Assembly (NCBI GenBank): GCA_030529545.1
Contig: JAUMWR010000001.1
Span: forward strand, 1 to 47,276
Direction: 5' to 3'
From: Buchananella hordeovulneris
Lineage (GTDB): Bacteria > Actinomycetota > Actinomycetes > Actinomycetales > Actinomycetaceae
DNA length: 47,276 nucleotides
Made by a program: the position numbers and the translations under genes. Below the pieces are notes generated by a model that saw only the letters and a list, made by a program, of their open reading frames with translations, was not told the DNA's origin and made no database searches. This document shows, piece after piece, positions 1,299 through 8,570 of this stretch (position 1 is its first letter; each line of letters starts with the position of its first letter).

Positions 1299-3224
1299 AT
1301 GATCCCGGCCCCCTCTCGTCACTCCTCCACCTCCCAACGCGCGCAAGGGCCGCGCGGGAACGTCGGCGAACCAACTCGCGCCGCCGATGGCCGCGTCATC
1401 GAGTGGACTGCCCCGCGCCTGGTGGAGACCACCGAGCGCAACACGATCCCGGCACTGTTGGCGGCGCGCGTGGAGCGCAGCGCCTCCCGTCCGCTGTTGG
1501 CGGTGAAGGACGCGCTCGGCACCAACTGGCGCTACCTGAGCGCGGCGCAGTTCGCGGAGGAGGTCGAGCGCACTGCCGCCGGCCTGATCGGCATGGGCCT
1601 GGAGTTCGGGCAGCGCGTGGCGATCATGTCCCGCACCCGCTACGAGTGGACGTTGCTGGACTACTCCTGCTGGGCGGCGGGTCTGGTGCCCGTCCCGATC
1701 TACGAGAGCTCGTCGGCTGAACAGATCGAGTTCATCCTGAAGGATGCCGAGGTCGCCGTGCTGGTCACCGAGACCACCACCTTGCAGGAGCTGGGCCGCG
1801 CCGCCTGCGCCGCCGGCGGTTTGGACGACGTTCAGCTGCTTTCCCTCGACACCGACGCCATTGCAACCATCCAGGCATTGGGAGCCGACGTTCCCGCCGG
1901 CGCCGTCGCCCAGCGTGGCGCCCTCTTGAGCACGGAGAGCCTGGCGACGATCGTCTACACGTCCGGCACCACGGGGCGCCCCAAGGGCACGGTCATCACG
2001 CACGGCAACTTCACGGACCTGGCCGTGAACTCGCACGCGTGGATGCCGGAGGTGGCGATGGGCCGCGACTCGCGCCTGCTGCTGTTCCTGCCGTTGGCCC
2101 ACGTCTTTGCCCGCTTCCTGCAGGTGTTCCAGCTGTCCGGCGAGGGCATCCTGGGCCACACCCCGGACACGAAGAACCTGTTGGCTGACCTGGCCACGTT
2201 CAAGCCCTCATACCTGTTAGCCGTGCCGCGCGTGCTGGAGAAGATCTACAACTCGGCCGACGCCAAGACTGGGGGCGGCATCAAGCAGAAGCTGTTCAGG
2301 TGGTCGGCCAAGGTGGCGATCGCCTACTCGCGGGCGCTGGAGAAGGGCGTGGTCCCGGCGGGGCTGAAGTTCCAGCGTCGCATCGCCGACCGCCTGGTGT
2401 ACTCCAAGATCAAGGAGCTAGTGGGCGGCAACGCGGGCTTCATCATCTCCGGTGGCGCGCCGCTGTCCACGCGGCTGGCGCACTTCTACACCGGGCTGGG
2501 CTTGCCGGTGCTGGAGGGATACGGCCTGACGGAGACCGTGGGGCCGCTGTCGGTGAATACGCCCACGCTGAGCAAGATCGGCACGGTAGGCCCGGCGCTG
2601 CCCACGCTGCGCGTGCGGATCAGCGAGGAGGGGGAGATCCTCATCAAGGGCCCCTCCGTGTTCCAGGGGTACCACAACGCCCCGGAGGCCACCGCTGCGG
2701 CGTTCACACCAGATGGCTGGTTCCGCACCGGCGACCTGGGCGCGCTGGACGACGACGGCTACGTCCGCATCACCGGCCGCGCCAAGGAAATCATCGTCAC
2801 GGCGGGCGGCAAGAACGTCGCCCCGGCGGCGCTGGAGGACCCGCTGCGCGGCCACCCGCTCATCAGCCAGGTCATCGCTGTCGGTGAGAAGCGTCCGTTC
2901 GTGGCGGCGCTGATCACCCTGGATGAGGAGATGCTGCCCGGGTGGCTGAAGAGCAAGGGCCTGCCGCCGATGACGGTGGTGGAGGCCGCCACCCACCCGG
3001 CGGTGTTGGCCGCGCTGGACCGCGCTGTGGAACGAGCCAACAAGCACGTCTCGCGCGCCGAGGCCATCCGCAAGATCAAGGTGCTCACCACGGACTTTAC
3101 CGAGGCGAACGGCCTGCTCACCCCGTCGTTGAAGGTCAAGCGCTCGCTGGTGGTGCAGCGCTTTGAAGAGGAGATCAACGAGATCTACGGCGGCCCGGTG
3201 CGCGAGGCTGGCGAGGAGAGCTGA
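1299..3224 (+). CDS. Long-chain fatty acid-CoA ligase (AMP-forming, FadD15-like)
   Basis: A 641-residue member of the ANL adenylating family, which activates fatty acids through an acyl-adenylate and transfers them to CoA. Visible motifs are the P-loop TSGTTGRPKG (about residues 221-230), YGLTET (about 408) and GWFRTGDLG (about 473-481), followed by the hinge GRAKEIIVTAGGKNVAP and a C-terminal lid domain. Length is typical of the long-chain (FadD15/FACL) branch. The ATG at 1299 follows AAGGA at a 9-base spacing. The first 35 residues are low complexity and lie upstream of the conserved domain, so an internal start is possible but none has a better ribosome site. It appears monocistronic, with an unusual repeat array in its 3' flank. 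Confidence 0.9.
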   Translation: MIPAPSRHSSTSQRAQGPRGNVGEPTRAADGRVIEWTAPRLVETTERNTIPALLAARVERSASRPLLAVKDALGTNWRYLSAAQFAEEVERTAAGLIGMGLEFGQRVAIMSRTRYEWTLLDYSCWAAGLVPVPIYESSSAEQIEFILKDAEVAVLVTETTTLQELGRAACAAGGLDDVQLLSLDTDAIATIQALGADVPAGAVAQRGALLSTESLATIVYTSGTTGRPKGTVITHGNFTDLAVNSHAWMPEVAMGRDSRLLLFLPLAHVFARFLQVFQLSGEGILGHTPDTKNLLADLATFKPSYLLAVPRVLEKIYNSADAKTGGGIKQKLFRWSAKVAIAYSRALEKGVVPAGLKFQRRIADRLVYSKIKELVGGNAGFIISGGAPLSTRLAHFYTGLGLPVLEGYGLTETVGPLSVNTPTLSKIGTVGPALPTLRVRISEEGEILIKGPSVFQGYHNAPEATAAAFTPDGWFRTGDLGALDDDGYVRITGRAKEIIVTAGGKNVAPAALEDPLRGHPLISQVIAVGEKRPFVAALITLDEEMLPGWLKSKGLPPMTVVEAATHPAVLAALDRAVERANKHVSRAEAIRKIKVLTTDFTEANGLLTPSLKVKRSLVVQRFEEEINEIYGGPVREAGEES

Positions 3225-3635
3225 GGTCGAAGACGGCTCCCCGGGCGGCTGGCTAGGGAACCGCTGCACGCAGTTGGGCGACGAGGCCACAACCTGGGCG
3301 ACAAGAACGCCACCTGGGCGACAGGAATGCGGGCGTTCTTGTCGCCAAACATAGGGACTCGTCGCCCAACATGTGTCCTTGTCGCCCAACTCGTCTCATG
3401 TCGAGCCTGCCAGGGGGACAAATGGAGGGGGCGCCAGTGCGTACAAGCCTCGTCTCAGTACAGACCCAACTCCTCGGTTAGCACCGTGAGGTCATCTGCC
3501 GCCACGCGTCGCGCGTGAAAAGAGGTATTTCACACGGCGGGCTTGCGGCAGTCAGGGGTGGTCGCCAAGGCGCTAACAAGGGGTGGGACGGCGCGTAGCC
3601 TGGGCGCTGACACCGCATCGCAGTGAAGATAAGCG
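3225..3635. other. Gene-free stretch between fadD-like gene and PH pseudogene
   Basis: No frame here looks coding. The main content is the dyad-symmetric array at 3273-3390, described separately. The remainder (3391-3635) contains a degenerate 'cctgccagggggacaaatgg' stretch and no clear promoter, tRNA or terminator that I can support. Confidence 0.5.
3273..3390. repeat. Six-unit 20-bp-period repeat arranged as an exact dyad (TGGGCGAC array)
   Basis: The 8-mer TGGGCGAC starts at 3275, 3295 and 3315. Its reverse complement GTCGCCCA starts at 3361 and 3381, with a one-mismatch copy (GTCGCCAA) at 3341. Each half therefore has an exact 20-bp period, and all three pairs share one centre at 3331.5. 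Unit consensus is rTTGGGCGACrAG; the outermost-left unit (3273-3285) and the middle-right unit (3358-3370) are identical over 13 bp once inverted. A 20-bp period is not a multiple of three, so this is not a coding repeat. It equals about two helical turns, so all sites would face one side of the DNA. As RNA it would fold into one long imperfect hairpin. Function unknown. Confidence 0.85.
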
Positions 3636-4004
3636 ATGGAACCGGCAGCTGTAGTCGAGTGGACCCCGATCTAGGAATCCCTCTTCCCGAGGGACCTGCC
3701 TCTGATCCTCGTCGAGGGCGAGGTGCCGGTGCGGGCGTTCAAGACGCTGCGGGACACGGCTGTGTTCCCCAACCTGCGCCTGAGCGTGCGCGACTCGCAG
3801 GGGATCACGGGCAAGAAGGTGGAGGGGTACCCGCTGCCCTACCGGTCGATTAACATGTGGTCGGCGAAGACGGCAGGCTTCATGGGGGTGAACACGGAGA
3901 TGGAGCCGTGGACGCGCGCGGGCCGCATAAAGCGCAAGCTGGGCGGCCGCGTCAACGTGCGCGAGCTAGTCCTCATGAGCAGCCAGGTCGGGCTCATCCC
4001 GTAG
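3636..4004 (+). pseudogene. PH-domain (YvbH/bPH-type) protein gene broken by an in-frame stop
   Basis: From the ATG at 3636 the frame reads MEPAAVVEWTPI, then a TAG at 3672-3674, then continues to a TAG at 4002-4004. The downstream part carries bacterial PH-domain hallmarks: LILVEGEVPVRAFKTLRDT, then DSQGITGKKVEGYPLPYRSI, then WTRAGRIKRKLG. Intact relatives begin a little further upstream and have a glutamine-like codon where the TAG lies, so the stop looks like a nonsense mutation (CAG to TAG). The internal GTG at 3723 could give a 93-residue fragment lacking the first strand. Family members are small cytosolic proteins of about 125 residues and unclear role. Substitutions at usually conserved positions agree with decay. 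Confidence 0.65.
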
Positions 4005-6246: not shown

Positions 6247-8277
6247 CTACCTGGCCACCTTGATGACCGGGTCTCCGGCTGCTACCTCGCCGCCAGCCAG
6301 CGGCGTCACCTCTCCCAGCGCAGCGGTGTTCGTGACGGTCATGATCGTCGTGGCGGGGAAGCCGGCCCGCTCAATGGACTCGAAATCGACCTCCACCAGC
6401 AGGTCGCCAGCCTCCACGCGCTGGCCCTTGCCAACAGCAACTCGGAAGCCCTCGCCCTGCAGCTTGACCGTGTCGATACCAACGTGAACCAGTACCTCCA
6501 CGCCATCGTCGCTCTTAATGCCGAAAGCGTGACCGGACTTGGCGGCGGTAGCCACCGTACCGGCGATCGGGGAAACGATTCGGGTCTCCACCGGCTCGAT
6601 CGCCACGCCCTCGCCCAGTGCCTTGGACGCGAACACCTTGTCCGCACACTCGGCCACCGGCAGCACACGACCAGCAACCGGGGCGCCCACGGTCGTGGTG
6701 GCCACCAGCGTTGCCGTAGCGGTGCCCGCGCCACCGGCAGCGGCGGCAACAGGGGCGGCGGCGGGGGCGGCCGGGGCGGCGGCAGCGTCGTCCACCTTGC
6801 CCAACGCGGCGGCCTTCTCCTCCGGGGTGCGGTAATCCAGCGCAATGATGAGCGCCATTGAGGTGAAGAACGCGACGGCGATGGCGATGCCGTAAACCCA
6901 CATCGGGTCGAACACCGGGATGGTCAGCACGGAGGTGAAGGCAAAGGCGTTGGTCTTCACGCCCTGGAACGGCAGGCCCAGGACGGCAATCGTCAGACCA
7001 CCGGCGAAACAACCGATCAGCATGCGGGAGTAGACCTTCTTGAACCGCAGGTGGATACCGTAAAGGGAAGGCTCGGAGATGCCACCAAACAGACCAGCAG
7101 CCAGCGCACCGGTAGCGGTCTGGCGCATCTGGGTGTCCTTCTCACGCAGCGACAGGTAGAGCACACCAGCGGTGGCGCCAAAGCAAGCGAAGTTCCACGC
7201 ACCCATCGGGCCCTGAATAAAGTCGTAACCGAGGGTGTCCAGGTTGACCAGCATGAGAGCGTTGAGCGGCCAGTGCAGACCCAGCGGCACCAGGAACGGG
7301 TAGAGCATCGGGATCAGGATGGCAAACACGAACGGGGCGTTGGCGTTCATCCACGCCAGGCCGGCGCCCAGACCATTACCCAGCCACACGCCGGAGGGGC
7401 CAATGATGAAAGCGGTCAGCGGGATCATCACGGCCATGGAGATGAAGGGCAGGAACACCATTTGGATGTTGTTCGGGATGACCTTCTTCAGGCCCTTGTA
7501 GAGCAGGCCCAGCACGGCCGCCATGATCAGGGGCACGAACACGTTACCGCCGTAACCGTTGAGCTGCATCGGCAGGCCCCAAATGGCGGTGGAGCACTGC
7601 ATCTCGCCGTGCAGGGTTTCGTTAGCTACGCAGGTGGTGCCGGGGAAGCGCTCCGGGTTGGCCAGGCTCATGAACTCCGGGGTCATCAGCGCACCCATGA
7701 TCGCGGCGCCCACCCACGGGTCAACGTTGAGCTTCTTGGAGGCGTTGTAGGCCACCATGATTGGCAGGAAGTAGAACACCGCTCGCCACATCGCGTCGAT
7801 GAACACCCAGGTGGCGCCCTTGTCGGGAGCGCGGAAGTCAACGATGTGCAGGGCGTCTAGCACCGCAGCGGAGGCGATGATTAGGGAGGCGCCCAGCAGC
7901 ACGCCCAGGATCGGGCGGAAGGAGTCAGAGAGGTACTCGAAGAAAGCGTCGAGGATTGCGGACTTGCCGCGCGCCTTGGCGCGGGCGGCCTCCTTGACGT
8001 CGGCGTCGCTTTGTGCGCCGCCCTTGCCCACGCCCGGCAGGGCAGTGAGCTGGTTGTAGACGCTCTGCACGGCGCCTCCGATTACCACCTGATAGCGGTC
8101 CCCAGACTGCGGTACGGCGGCCAACACGCCCGGGGTGGAATCTAGCTTCGCCTGGTCAACAAGGGAAGCGTCCCTGAGCTCAAACCTCAGGCGCGTGGCG
8201 CAGTGCGACAGGCTCGCAATGTTCTCAGCGCCGCCAATGTGGGCCAGGATGGCCTTGGCGGTCTCCAGATCAGACAC
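6247..8277 (-). CDS. PTS permease, beta-glucoside family, fused EIIBCA
   Basis: A 676-residue membrane protein that imports and phosphorylates a sugar at the expense of phospho-HPr. EIIB comes first (about 1-80), with the phosphocysteine at residue 26 in SHCATRLRF. EIIC (about 100-460) has repeated long hydrophobic helices. An Ala/Pro-rich linker (about 475-515) leads to EIIA (about 530-676), whose phospho-histidine is in VLVHVGIDTVKL. Domain order and length fit the BglF/ScrA-like glucoside family; the exact substrate (aryl-beta-glucoside, sucrose or trehalose) cannot be told from sequence alone. No phospho-glycosidase gene is adjacent, which is unusual. The ATG at 8277 follows AAGGAGG. Expression is controlled by the leader at 8290-8513. 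Confidence 0.9.
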   Translation of the reverse strand: MSDLETAKAILAHIGGAENIASLSHCATRLRFELRDASLVDQAKLDSTPGVLAAVPQSGDRYQVVIGGAVQSVYNQLTALPGVGKGGAQSDADVKEAARAKARGKSAILDAFFEYLSDSFRPILGVLLGASLIIASAAVLDALHIVDFRAPDKGATWVFIDAMWRAVFYFLPIMVAYNASKKLNVDPWVGAAIMGALMTPEFMSLANPERFPGTTCVANETLHGEMQCSTAIWGLPMQLNGYGGNVFVPLIMAAVLGLLYKGLKKVIPNNIQMVFLPFISMAVMIPLTAFIIGPSGVWLGNGLGAGLAWMNANAPFVFAILIPMLYPFLVPLGLHWPLNALMLVNLDTLGYDFIQGPMGAWNFACFGATAGVLYLSLREKDTQMRQTATGALAAGLFGGISEPSLYGIHLRFKKVYSRMLIGCFAGGLTIAVLGLPFQGVKTNAFAFTSVLTIPVFDPMWVYGIAIAVAFFTSMALIIALDYRTPEEKAAALGKVDDAAAAPAAPAAAPVAAAAGGAGTATATLVATTTVGAPVAGRVLPVAECADKVFASKALGEGVAIEPVETRIVSPIAGTVATAAKSGHAFGIKSDDGVEVLVHVGIDTVKLQGEGFRVAVGKGQRVEAGDLLVEVDFESIERAGFPATTIMTVTNTAALGEVTPLAGGEVAAGDPVIKVAR

Positions 8278-8392
8278 CTTCGTCCTCCTTAGTAGGTTTG
8301 CAGGATTGTTACTCCGGGGACGTTCCCGGGGGCGGGCGGCGGCGCCTTGCCGCCGCCCTTACTTTGGGACTGAGCAATCTGGCCCTGAAAAC

Positions 8393-8431
8393 AAAAAAGA
8401 CCCGAGACGGCACGTGAGTGCGTCTCAGGTC
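8393..8431 (-). terminator. Leader terminator of the PTS gene, overlapping the RAT
   Basis: On the minus strand GACCTGAGACG and CGTCTCGGGTC form an 11-bp stem (one G-U pair) with an 11-base loop, followed by six T residues. Its 5' arm begins inside the last bases of the RAT (GGCAAGACC), the standard mutually exclusive arrangement for LicT/BglG antitermination. Confidence 0.9.
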
Positions 8432-8468
8432 TTGCCTCAGATCTGATTTCTCAGCGGAGTAACAATCC
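8428..8468 (-). promoter_or_regulatory. RAT (ribonucleic antiterminator) for the PRD regulator
   Basis: On the minus strand this reads GGATTGTTACT at its 5' end and GGCAAGACC at its 3' end, both matching known bgl and sac RATs. The middle is longer than the usual 29-30 bases (41 in all), with small internal palindromes (CTGAG...). Binding of the CAT domain would stabilise it and prevent the overlapping terminator. Confidence 0.88.
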
Positions 8469-8484
8469 TGCATTGAATGACACG

Positions 8485-8513
8485 AGCCTAACAGCGGGGA
8501 GCGGGCTGGGCAA
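8485..8513 (-). promoter_or_regulatory. Promoter of the PTS leader
   Basis: On the minus strand, TTGCCC (8508-8513), a 17-bp spacer and TAGGCT (8485-8490). Transcription would start about 8478, a few bases before the RAT, as expected for an antitermination leader. Confidence 0.65.
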
Positions 8514-8538
8514 GAGCTTTGAAGATCCTGAAAGTGTT

Positions 8539-8570
8539 TGTGGGGGTAGCGCCGCAGCGCTACCCCCACA
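8539..8570 (-). terminator. Terminator-like hairpin after the Gly/Pro-rich protein gene
   Basis: A perfect 14-bp stem (TGTGGGGGTAGCGC and complement) with loop CGCA, about 30 bases past the stop codon of the 8601 gene. There is no T-run; on the minus strand it is followed by AACACTTTC. Confidence 0.7.

Follow-up and report, generated by a model that had tools for sequence, protein, structure and literature searches.

The array at positions 3272 to 3391 of the 47,276-nucleotide stretch of Buchananella hordeovulneris DNA analyzed here (the window) raises the question of what kind of element is built from six short words set two helical turns apart about one centre, and whether it is peculiar to this place or one of a family. 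The first-pass annotation placed TGGGCGAC at 3275, 3295 and 3315 and inverted GTCGCC words at 3341, 3361 and 3381, and both these positions and the exact 20-bp period around a shared centre at 3331.5 were confirmed from the sequence. The spaced pair TGGGCGAC-N12-TGGGCGAC occurs 3 times in the window versus 0 in 100 shuffles. On the forward strand the left arm carries GGCGAC at 3277-3282 (outer), 3297-3302 and 3317-3322 (inner); an 18-bp centre (3323-3340) separates it from the right arm, in which GTCGCC, the same word on the reverse strand, occupies 3341-3346 (inner), 3361-3366 and 3381-3386 (outer). The inverted word at 3341 reads GTCGCCAA, thus only the hexamer GTCGCC is common to all three words of that arm.

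The bounds of the element were set with 22 aligned, oriented copies from the same genome, in which conservation runs from -5 to +114 of the first word and the flanks beyond these 120 bp have nothing in common; the edges are therefore sharp, at 3272 and 3391, and the window copy is a complete array of 3+3 words on the forward strand, with ACCT-type linkers in its left arm. Fourteen copies align over the 120 columns without gaps; the ends of the element read A[CG]NNG...CAACT. Words 2, 3 and 4, the inner words among them, are intact in 22/22 copies and the length of the centre is constant in 21 of the 25 scored copies of the GGCGAC family, while many linker positions vary around a consensus (GGCGAC RAG NNC NCA NSYTS). 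The perfect dyad symmetry originally described holds for the words but not for the 14-bp linkers, which are imperfectly symmetric and mismatched between the arms at position 11; the exclusion of a CRISPR stands, as the arms are inverted and the linkers share a consensus. No T run after 3391 or A run before 3272, as expected of an intrinsic terminator, was found.

The array starts 47 bp past the stop codon of a gene for an AMP-binding enzyme of the acyl-CoA ligase type (1299-3224, forward strand; PF00501, E=1.9e-66), which shows 85% DNA identity to its ortholog in a congener (G001); there is no array at that place in G001. A strong hairpin at the orthologous G001 site was considered and set aside as an unrelated structure without phased words. 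Downstream lies a bacterial PH-domain gene (3636-4004, forward strand; PF08000, E=5.8e-18 on 3723-4004) with an early in-frame TAG at 3672, where the matching G001 frame has no stop; it is a pseudogene or remnant, in agreement with the annotation.

The element is not alone. In the 2.09-Mb draft of the source genome, TGGGCGAC-N12-TGGGCGAC has 33 exact matches; with as many as 2 mismatches allowed there are 99, compared with 6 for the reversed control, which refutes within this genome the possibility of there being no second copy. Clustering of the spaced-pair matches gave about 37 dispersed places, copies or fragments, and the 2+2 core with its 18-bp centre has 22 matches on each strand; this number of copies with fixed spacing and symmetry supports the dedicated element that the first reading had envisaged. 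Complete copies are 3+3 and others 2+2, 2+3 or 3+2. Around 18 of the places lie at contig ends and several more have gaps of 10 Ns inside the array, hence the true copy number may differ; the arrays break the assembly, many of its contig ends and gaps falling inside them. Words are conserved above linkers and in fixed helical phase, and the copies are short, dispersed and non-coding, with inverted ends. By crude gene calls based on a simple composition rule, all copies are intergenic, except the one at L050, which is at a contig end and overlaps a called ORF; where both neighbors are known, 5 copies lie between convergent genes, 7 between tandem genes and 0 between divergent genes. Two observations concern the surroundings of other copies: two adjacent AAA_14/DUF4143 genes with lower third-position G+C (L031:5716-7032 and 7264-8541) sit beside two local copies, and at L048:3541-3604 an apparent transposase gene tail, 95% identical to G001, directly adjoins a phased array.

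A search of related Actinomycetaceae for the same word was also proposed, and the expectation was not borne out: allowing up to 2 mismatches, the GGCGAC core was found in 0 of the 212 other genomes of the family. The exact core was likewise absent from viral contigs, plasmids and phages, and from 84,980 GTDB species, the latter being a weak negative because even the G001 word, which G001 does contain, scored 0 in that collection. What the relatives have is the layout, with other words. A sequence model (R1) matched 53 of 213 genomes at E<=0.01, most matches reading as chance in G+C-rich coding DNA; only those at L128, L132 and L140 resembled arrays. L140 and L132 proved to be phased, with other words, while for L128 a period scan did not confirm a 20-bp array (best period 19). 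Because the arrays reached by the model had other words, we wrote a detector that ignores the word and looks for any 6-mer repeated at period P together with its reverse complement repeated at P within 160 bp; some of its matches at other periods are chance in coding DNA.

In 400-kb samples at period 20 this detector returned 12 arrays in G001 and, in two more distant genomes, 9 (G031) and 3 (G016). Extended to 1.2 Mb of G001 (about half of the genome), it gave 31 arrays at period 20, while no other period between 13 and 31 gave more than 2. The word families of this congener are CTCGAC, the main one, with 35 core matches per strand genome-wide and 0 in 58 other genomes, CTTGTC, CTAGAC, with near-identical copies, GGTGCACC and GCCTTTGTTG. 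G031 again has a word of its own: 165 pair matches of ATCTCGTT (ATCTCGTTC at the 20-bp phase), and 0 in the rest of the 213 genomes. The 400-kb sample of G016 also held 5 arrays at period 19, and a 19-bp-phased family with the word CGACCGGTCATGT (L190 451, L193 602, L199 4072, L203 2137, L204 17868) suggests that the period is 19 or 20 depending on the family. A distance of 18 bp separates the inner words in the GGCGAC family of the source genome and in the CTTGTC and CTAGAC families of G001, whose CTCGAC arrays have a centre of mostly 18+20n; G031 has a centre of 9 and G016 one of 11. Other dispersed repeats were seen along the way: a palindromic one of GTGTCCACGSGGCGGACAT type in G031 (L180 11731-11819, L181 4573-4661, L171 16135-16219) and, in G001, a G+C-rich repeat, GGCCGACGYTSCCGCCCGCC, beside gene ends (C1 near 444818, 731350, 850781 and 1101222), possibly another dispersed hairpin family.

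Arrays with different words also share places. Fifteen element sites of the source genome could be mapped to orthologous spots in the G001 sample, and 5 of them (L043, L045, L047, L052 and L054) have a CTCGAC array there, compared with a mean of 0.6-0.8 for random intergenic points (P of 5 or more, 1.5e-4 to 6.5e-4); the window copy is not among the five. The CTTGTC and CTAGAC families were found at 0 of the 15 spots. As co-located arrays do not clearly resemble each other in their linkers more than random pairs do, co-location could mean common insertion hot spots instead of descent; it reflects either replacement of the word in place or a shared insertion preference. Dispersal, layout, word turnover and this co-location between congeners, together with the lack of pairing covariation described below, are direct observations.

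We consider it about an even bet (a probability near 0.5) that the element belongs, as one copy among many, to a non-coding family of repeats in which the words are phased sites of a predicted sequence-specific DNA-binding protein, the word turning over genome-wide and the copies being dispersed in the manner of small mobile repeats. Six hexamer sites, spaced by two helical turns on either side of a fixed 18-bp centre, would form a rigid, dyad-symmetric array; the putative protein would occupy the words on double-stranded DNA and may assemble, along one helix face, into a filament or a bridged complex. Protein and words would diverge together, and a word peculiar to each species would result, with the layout preserved. 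The protein, its mode of binding and the function of the arrays are what we infer here, and the intergenic placement suggests for the latter a boundary, roadblock or nucleoid role, or else selective tolerance of a mobile repeat; the arrays may also be a mobile repeat in their own right that makes use of the putative protein. Among the four options initially offered for the array, namely a multi-dimer operator, a recombination or integration site, an iteron remnant and a long hairpin RNA, a multi-site protein-binding cluster fits best. Period 20 and the 18-bp centre persist between congeners although the linkers have changed completely and the word has changed too, so that the layout outlasts the sequence, and different-word arrays share intergenic gaps above chance; such a pattern would be expected of a protein that co-evolves with its sites across the genome.

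A possible but doubtful alternative is that the word families are miniature mobile elements, non-autonomous repeats copied in trans in which the words are transposase-binding sites. Copies that are dispersed, sharply bounded and private to a species would agree with it, and the several word families within one genome, G001, with near-identical copies in one of them, also fit mobile repeats. However, no offset shows a consistent target-site duplication among 13 complete copies, the Y1/RAYT transposase (PF01797) has 0 matches in the source genome while control genomes match, and no split pair of CTCGAC half-arrays, as an autonomous copy would have, was found in 1.2 Mb of G001. Moreover, the copies of the source genome are diverged, unlike a fresh burst, and a miniature element does not need a fixed centre. 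One array family of G031, with the word GGACCAC, does lie within a repeat of 1.04 kb whose terminal inverted repeats measure 56 bp (L170:1903-2940, L170:8990-10040 and L177:5975-7014), a point in favor of mobility; its ends, GGCTCWTCCC, resemble ISL3-type ends, but this repeat looks like a carrier of the array rather than its mobiliser.

Transcribed hairpins at the 3' ends of genes, acting as terminators, mRNA stabilisers or long double-stranded RNA, are improbable. The predicted fold is strong on either strand (z of -8.2 and -7.1), the orientation of the neighboring genes in the source genome would suit such a role, and so would the many contig ends and assembly gaps inside arrays; nevertheless, in G001 arrays are also found between divergent genes (2/14), and the arms do not behave as a stem. 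In oriented rows of the source genome, Watson-Crick agreement between linkers is 0.505 within copies versus 0.532 between copies, and the G/C-variable position that precedes each word shows no covariation. In G001, the third position of the word is C or A irrespective of the base in the opposite word, and the linkers have no excess pairing. As opposite arms lack compensatory pairing, selection for a stem, be it of RNA or DNA, is unlikely; this weakens, in the two species tested, the long hairpin RNA that had been offered on the strength of the fold. Rfam gave no meaningful match to the element (best E=0.21, far below the gathering score).

Each array has a polarity. At linker position 11, 0 of 20 outer pairs and 2 of 23 inner pairs match between the arms, an apparent anti-covariation that is explained by copies lying either way round, every one of them with a single polar strand: in both arms the C of position 11 sits on one and the same strand. 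A same-strand motif, AAC in the GGCGAC family, breaks the dyad; the arms are not equivalent, and to speak of six equal sites simplifies matters, a point against the protein-binding reading, as is the number of units, which varies from 2+2 up to 7+3. Functionless palindromic satellite DNA, neutral, enlarged by slippage and scattered by recombination, would account for this variable number of units and for the local duplicates at L031, L042 and L052, yet it is very improbable, as words and centre length are kept while the linkers diverge and the layout is common to word families and species.

Returning to the protein-binding reading, we tentatively extend it to an undescribed class of element, in which rigid dyad arrays phased at 19-20 bp may occupy some conserved intergenic positions and have all their words exchanged together from one sister species to another, the driver being a putative fast-evolving DNA-binding protein; this would be the bacterial equivalent of the fast-changing recognition of hot spots or satellites. 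In the open-access literature we found no account of phased dyad arrays whose words can be exchanged, and the remark of the first-pass annotation that no named family has this layout holds as far as the tests reached. Such arrays may be common and unrecorded, because searches for conserved sequence miss them.

Several known systems share part of this design. BOX-type repeats are modular and intergenic with a variable number of internal units, as are the arrays; unlike them, the arrays are dyad-symmetric, with a strict 20-bp phase and an interchangeable word. Iteron arrays and multi-site operators also set direct repeats of about 20 bp on one face of the helix, but here there are dozens of chromosomal copies with inverted arms, which makes the iteron remnant first suggested unlikely, and no linked initiator or regulator was seen. 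The ends of Mu, Tn7 and IS21 each hold several transposase sites phased at about 20 bp and inverted between ends, whereas the "ends" of the arrays are 18 bp apart with nothing between them, no duplication is found and the copies keep a fixed layout. MITEs and other miniature elements derived from insertion sequences are, like the arrays, short, non-coding and dispersed with inverted ends, although no consistent target-site duplication was found for the arrays and no parent element was recognised in the G001 sample. REP and REPIN sequences with their RAYT transposases, palindromes or doublets of 20-40 bp with GTAG or CGTC tags, resemble the arrays in being small intergenic palindromic repeats, species-specific, with several families per genome and mostly downstream of genes (PMC3116915, PMC3733652). 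The arrays differ from these in being 120 bp long, with six phased hexamers and a fixed centre, and in having no GTAG/CGTC tag, no pairing signal and, in the source genome, no RAYT. REP/REPIN and MITE are the nearest known kinds, each failing at least one defining test here; the element is best described as a variant of dispersed palindromic repeat, and there is a real possibility that it forms a new class.
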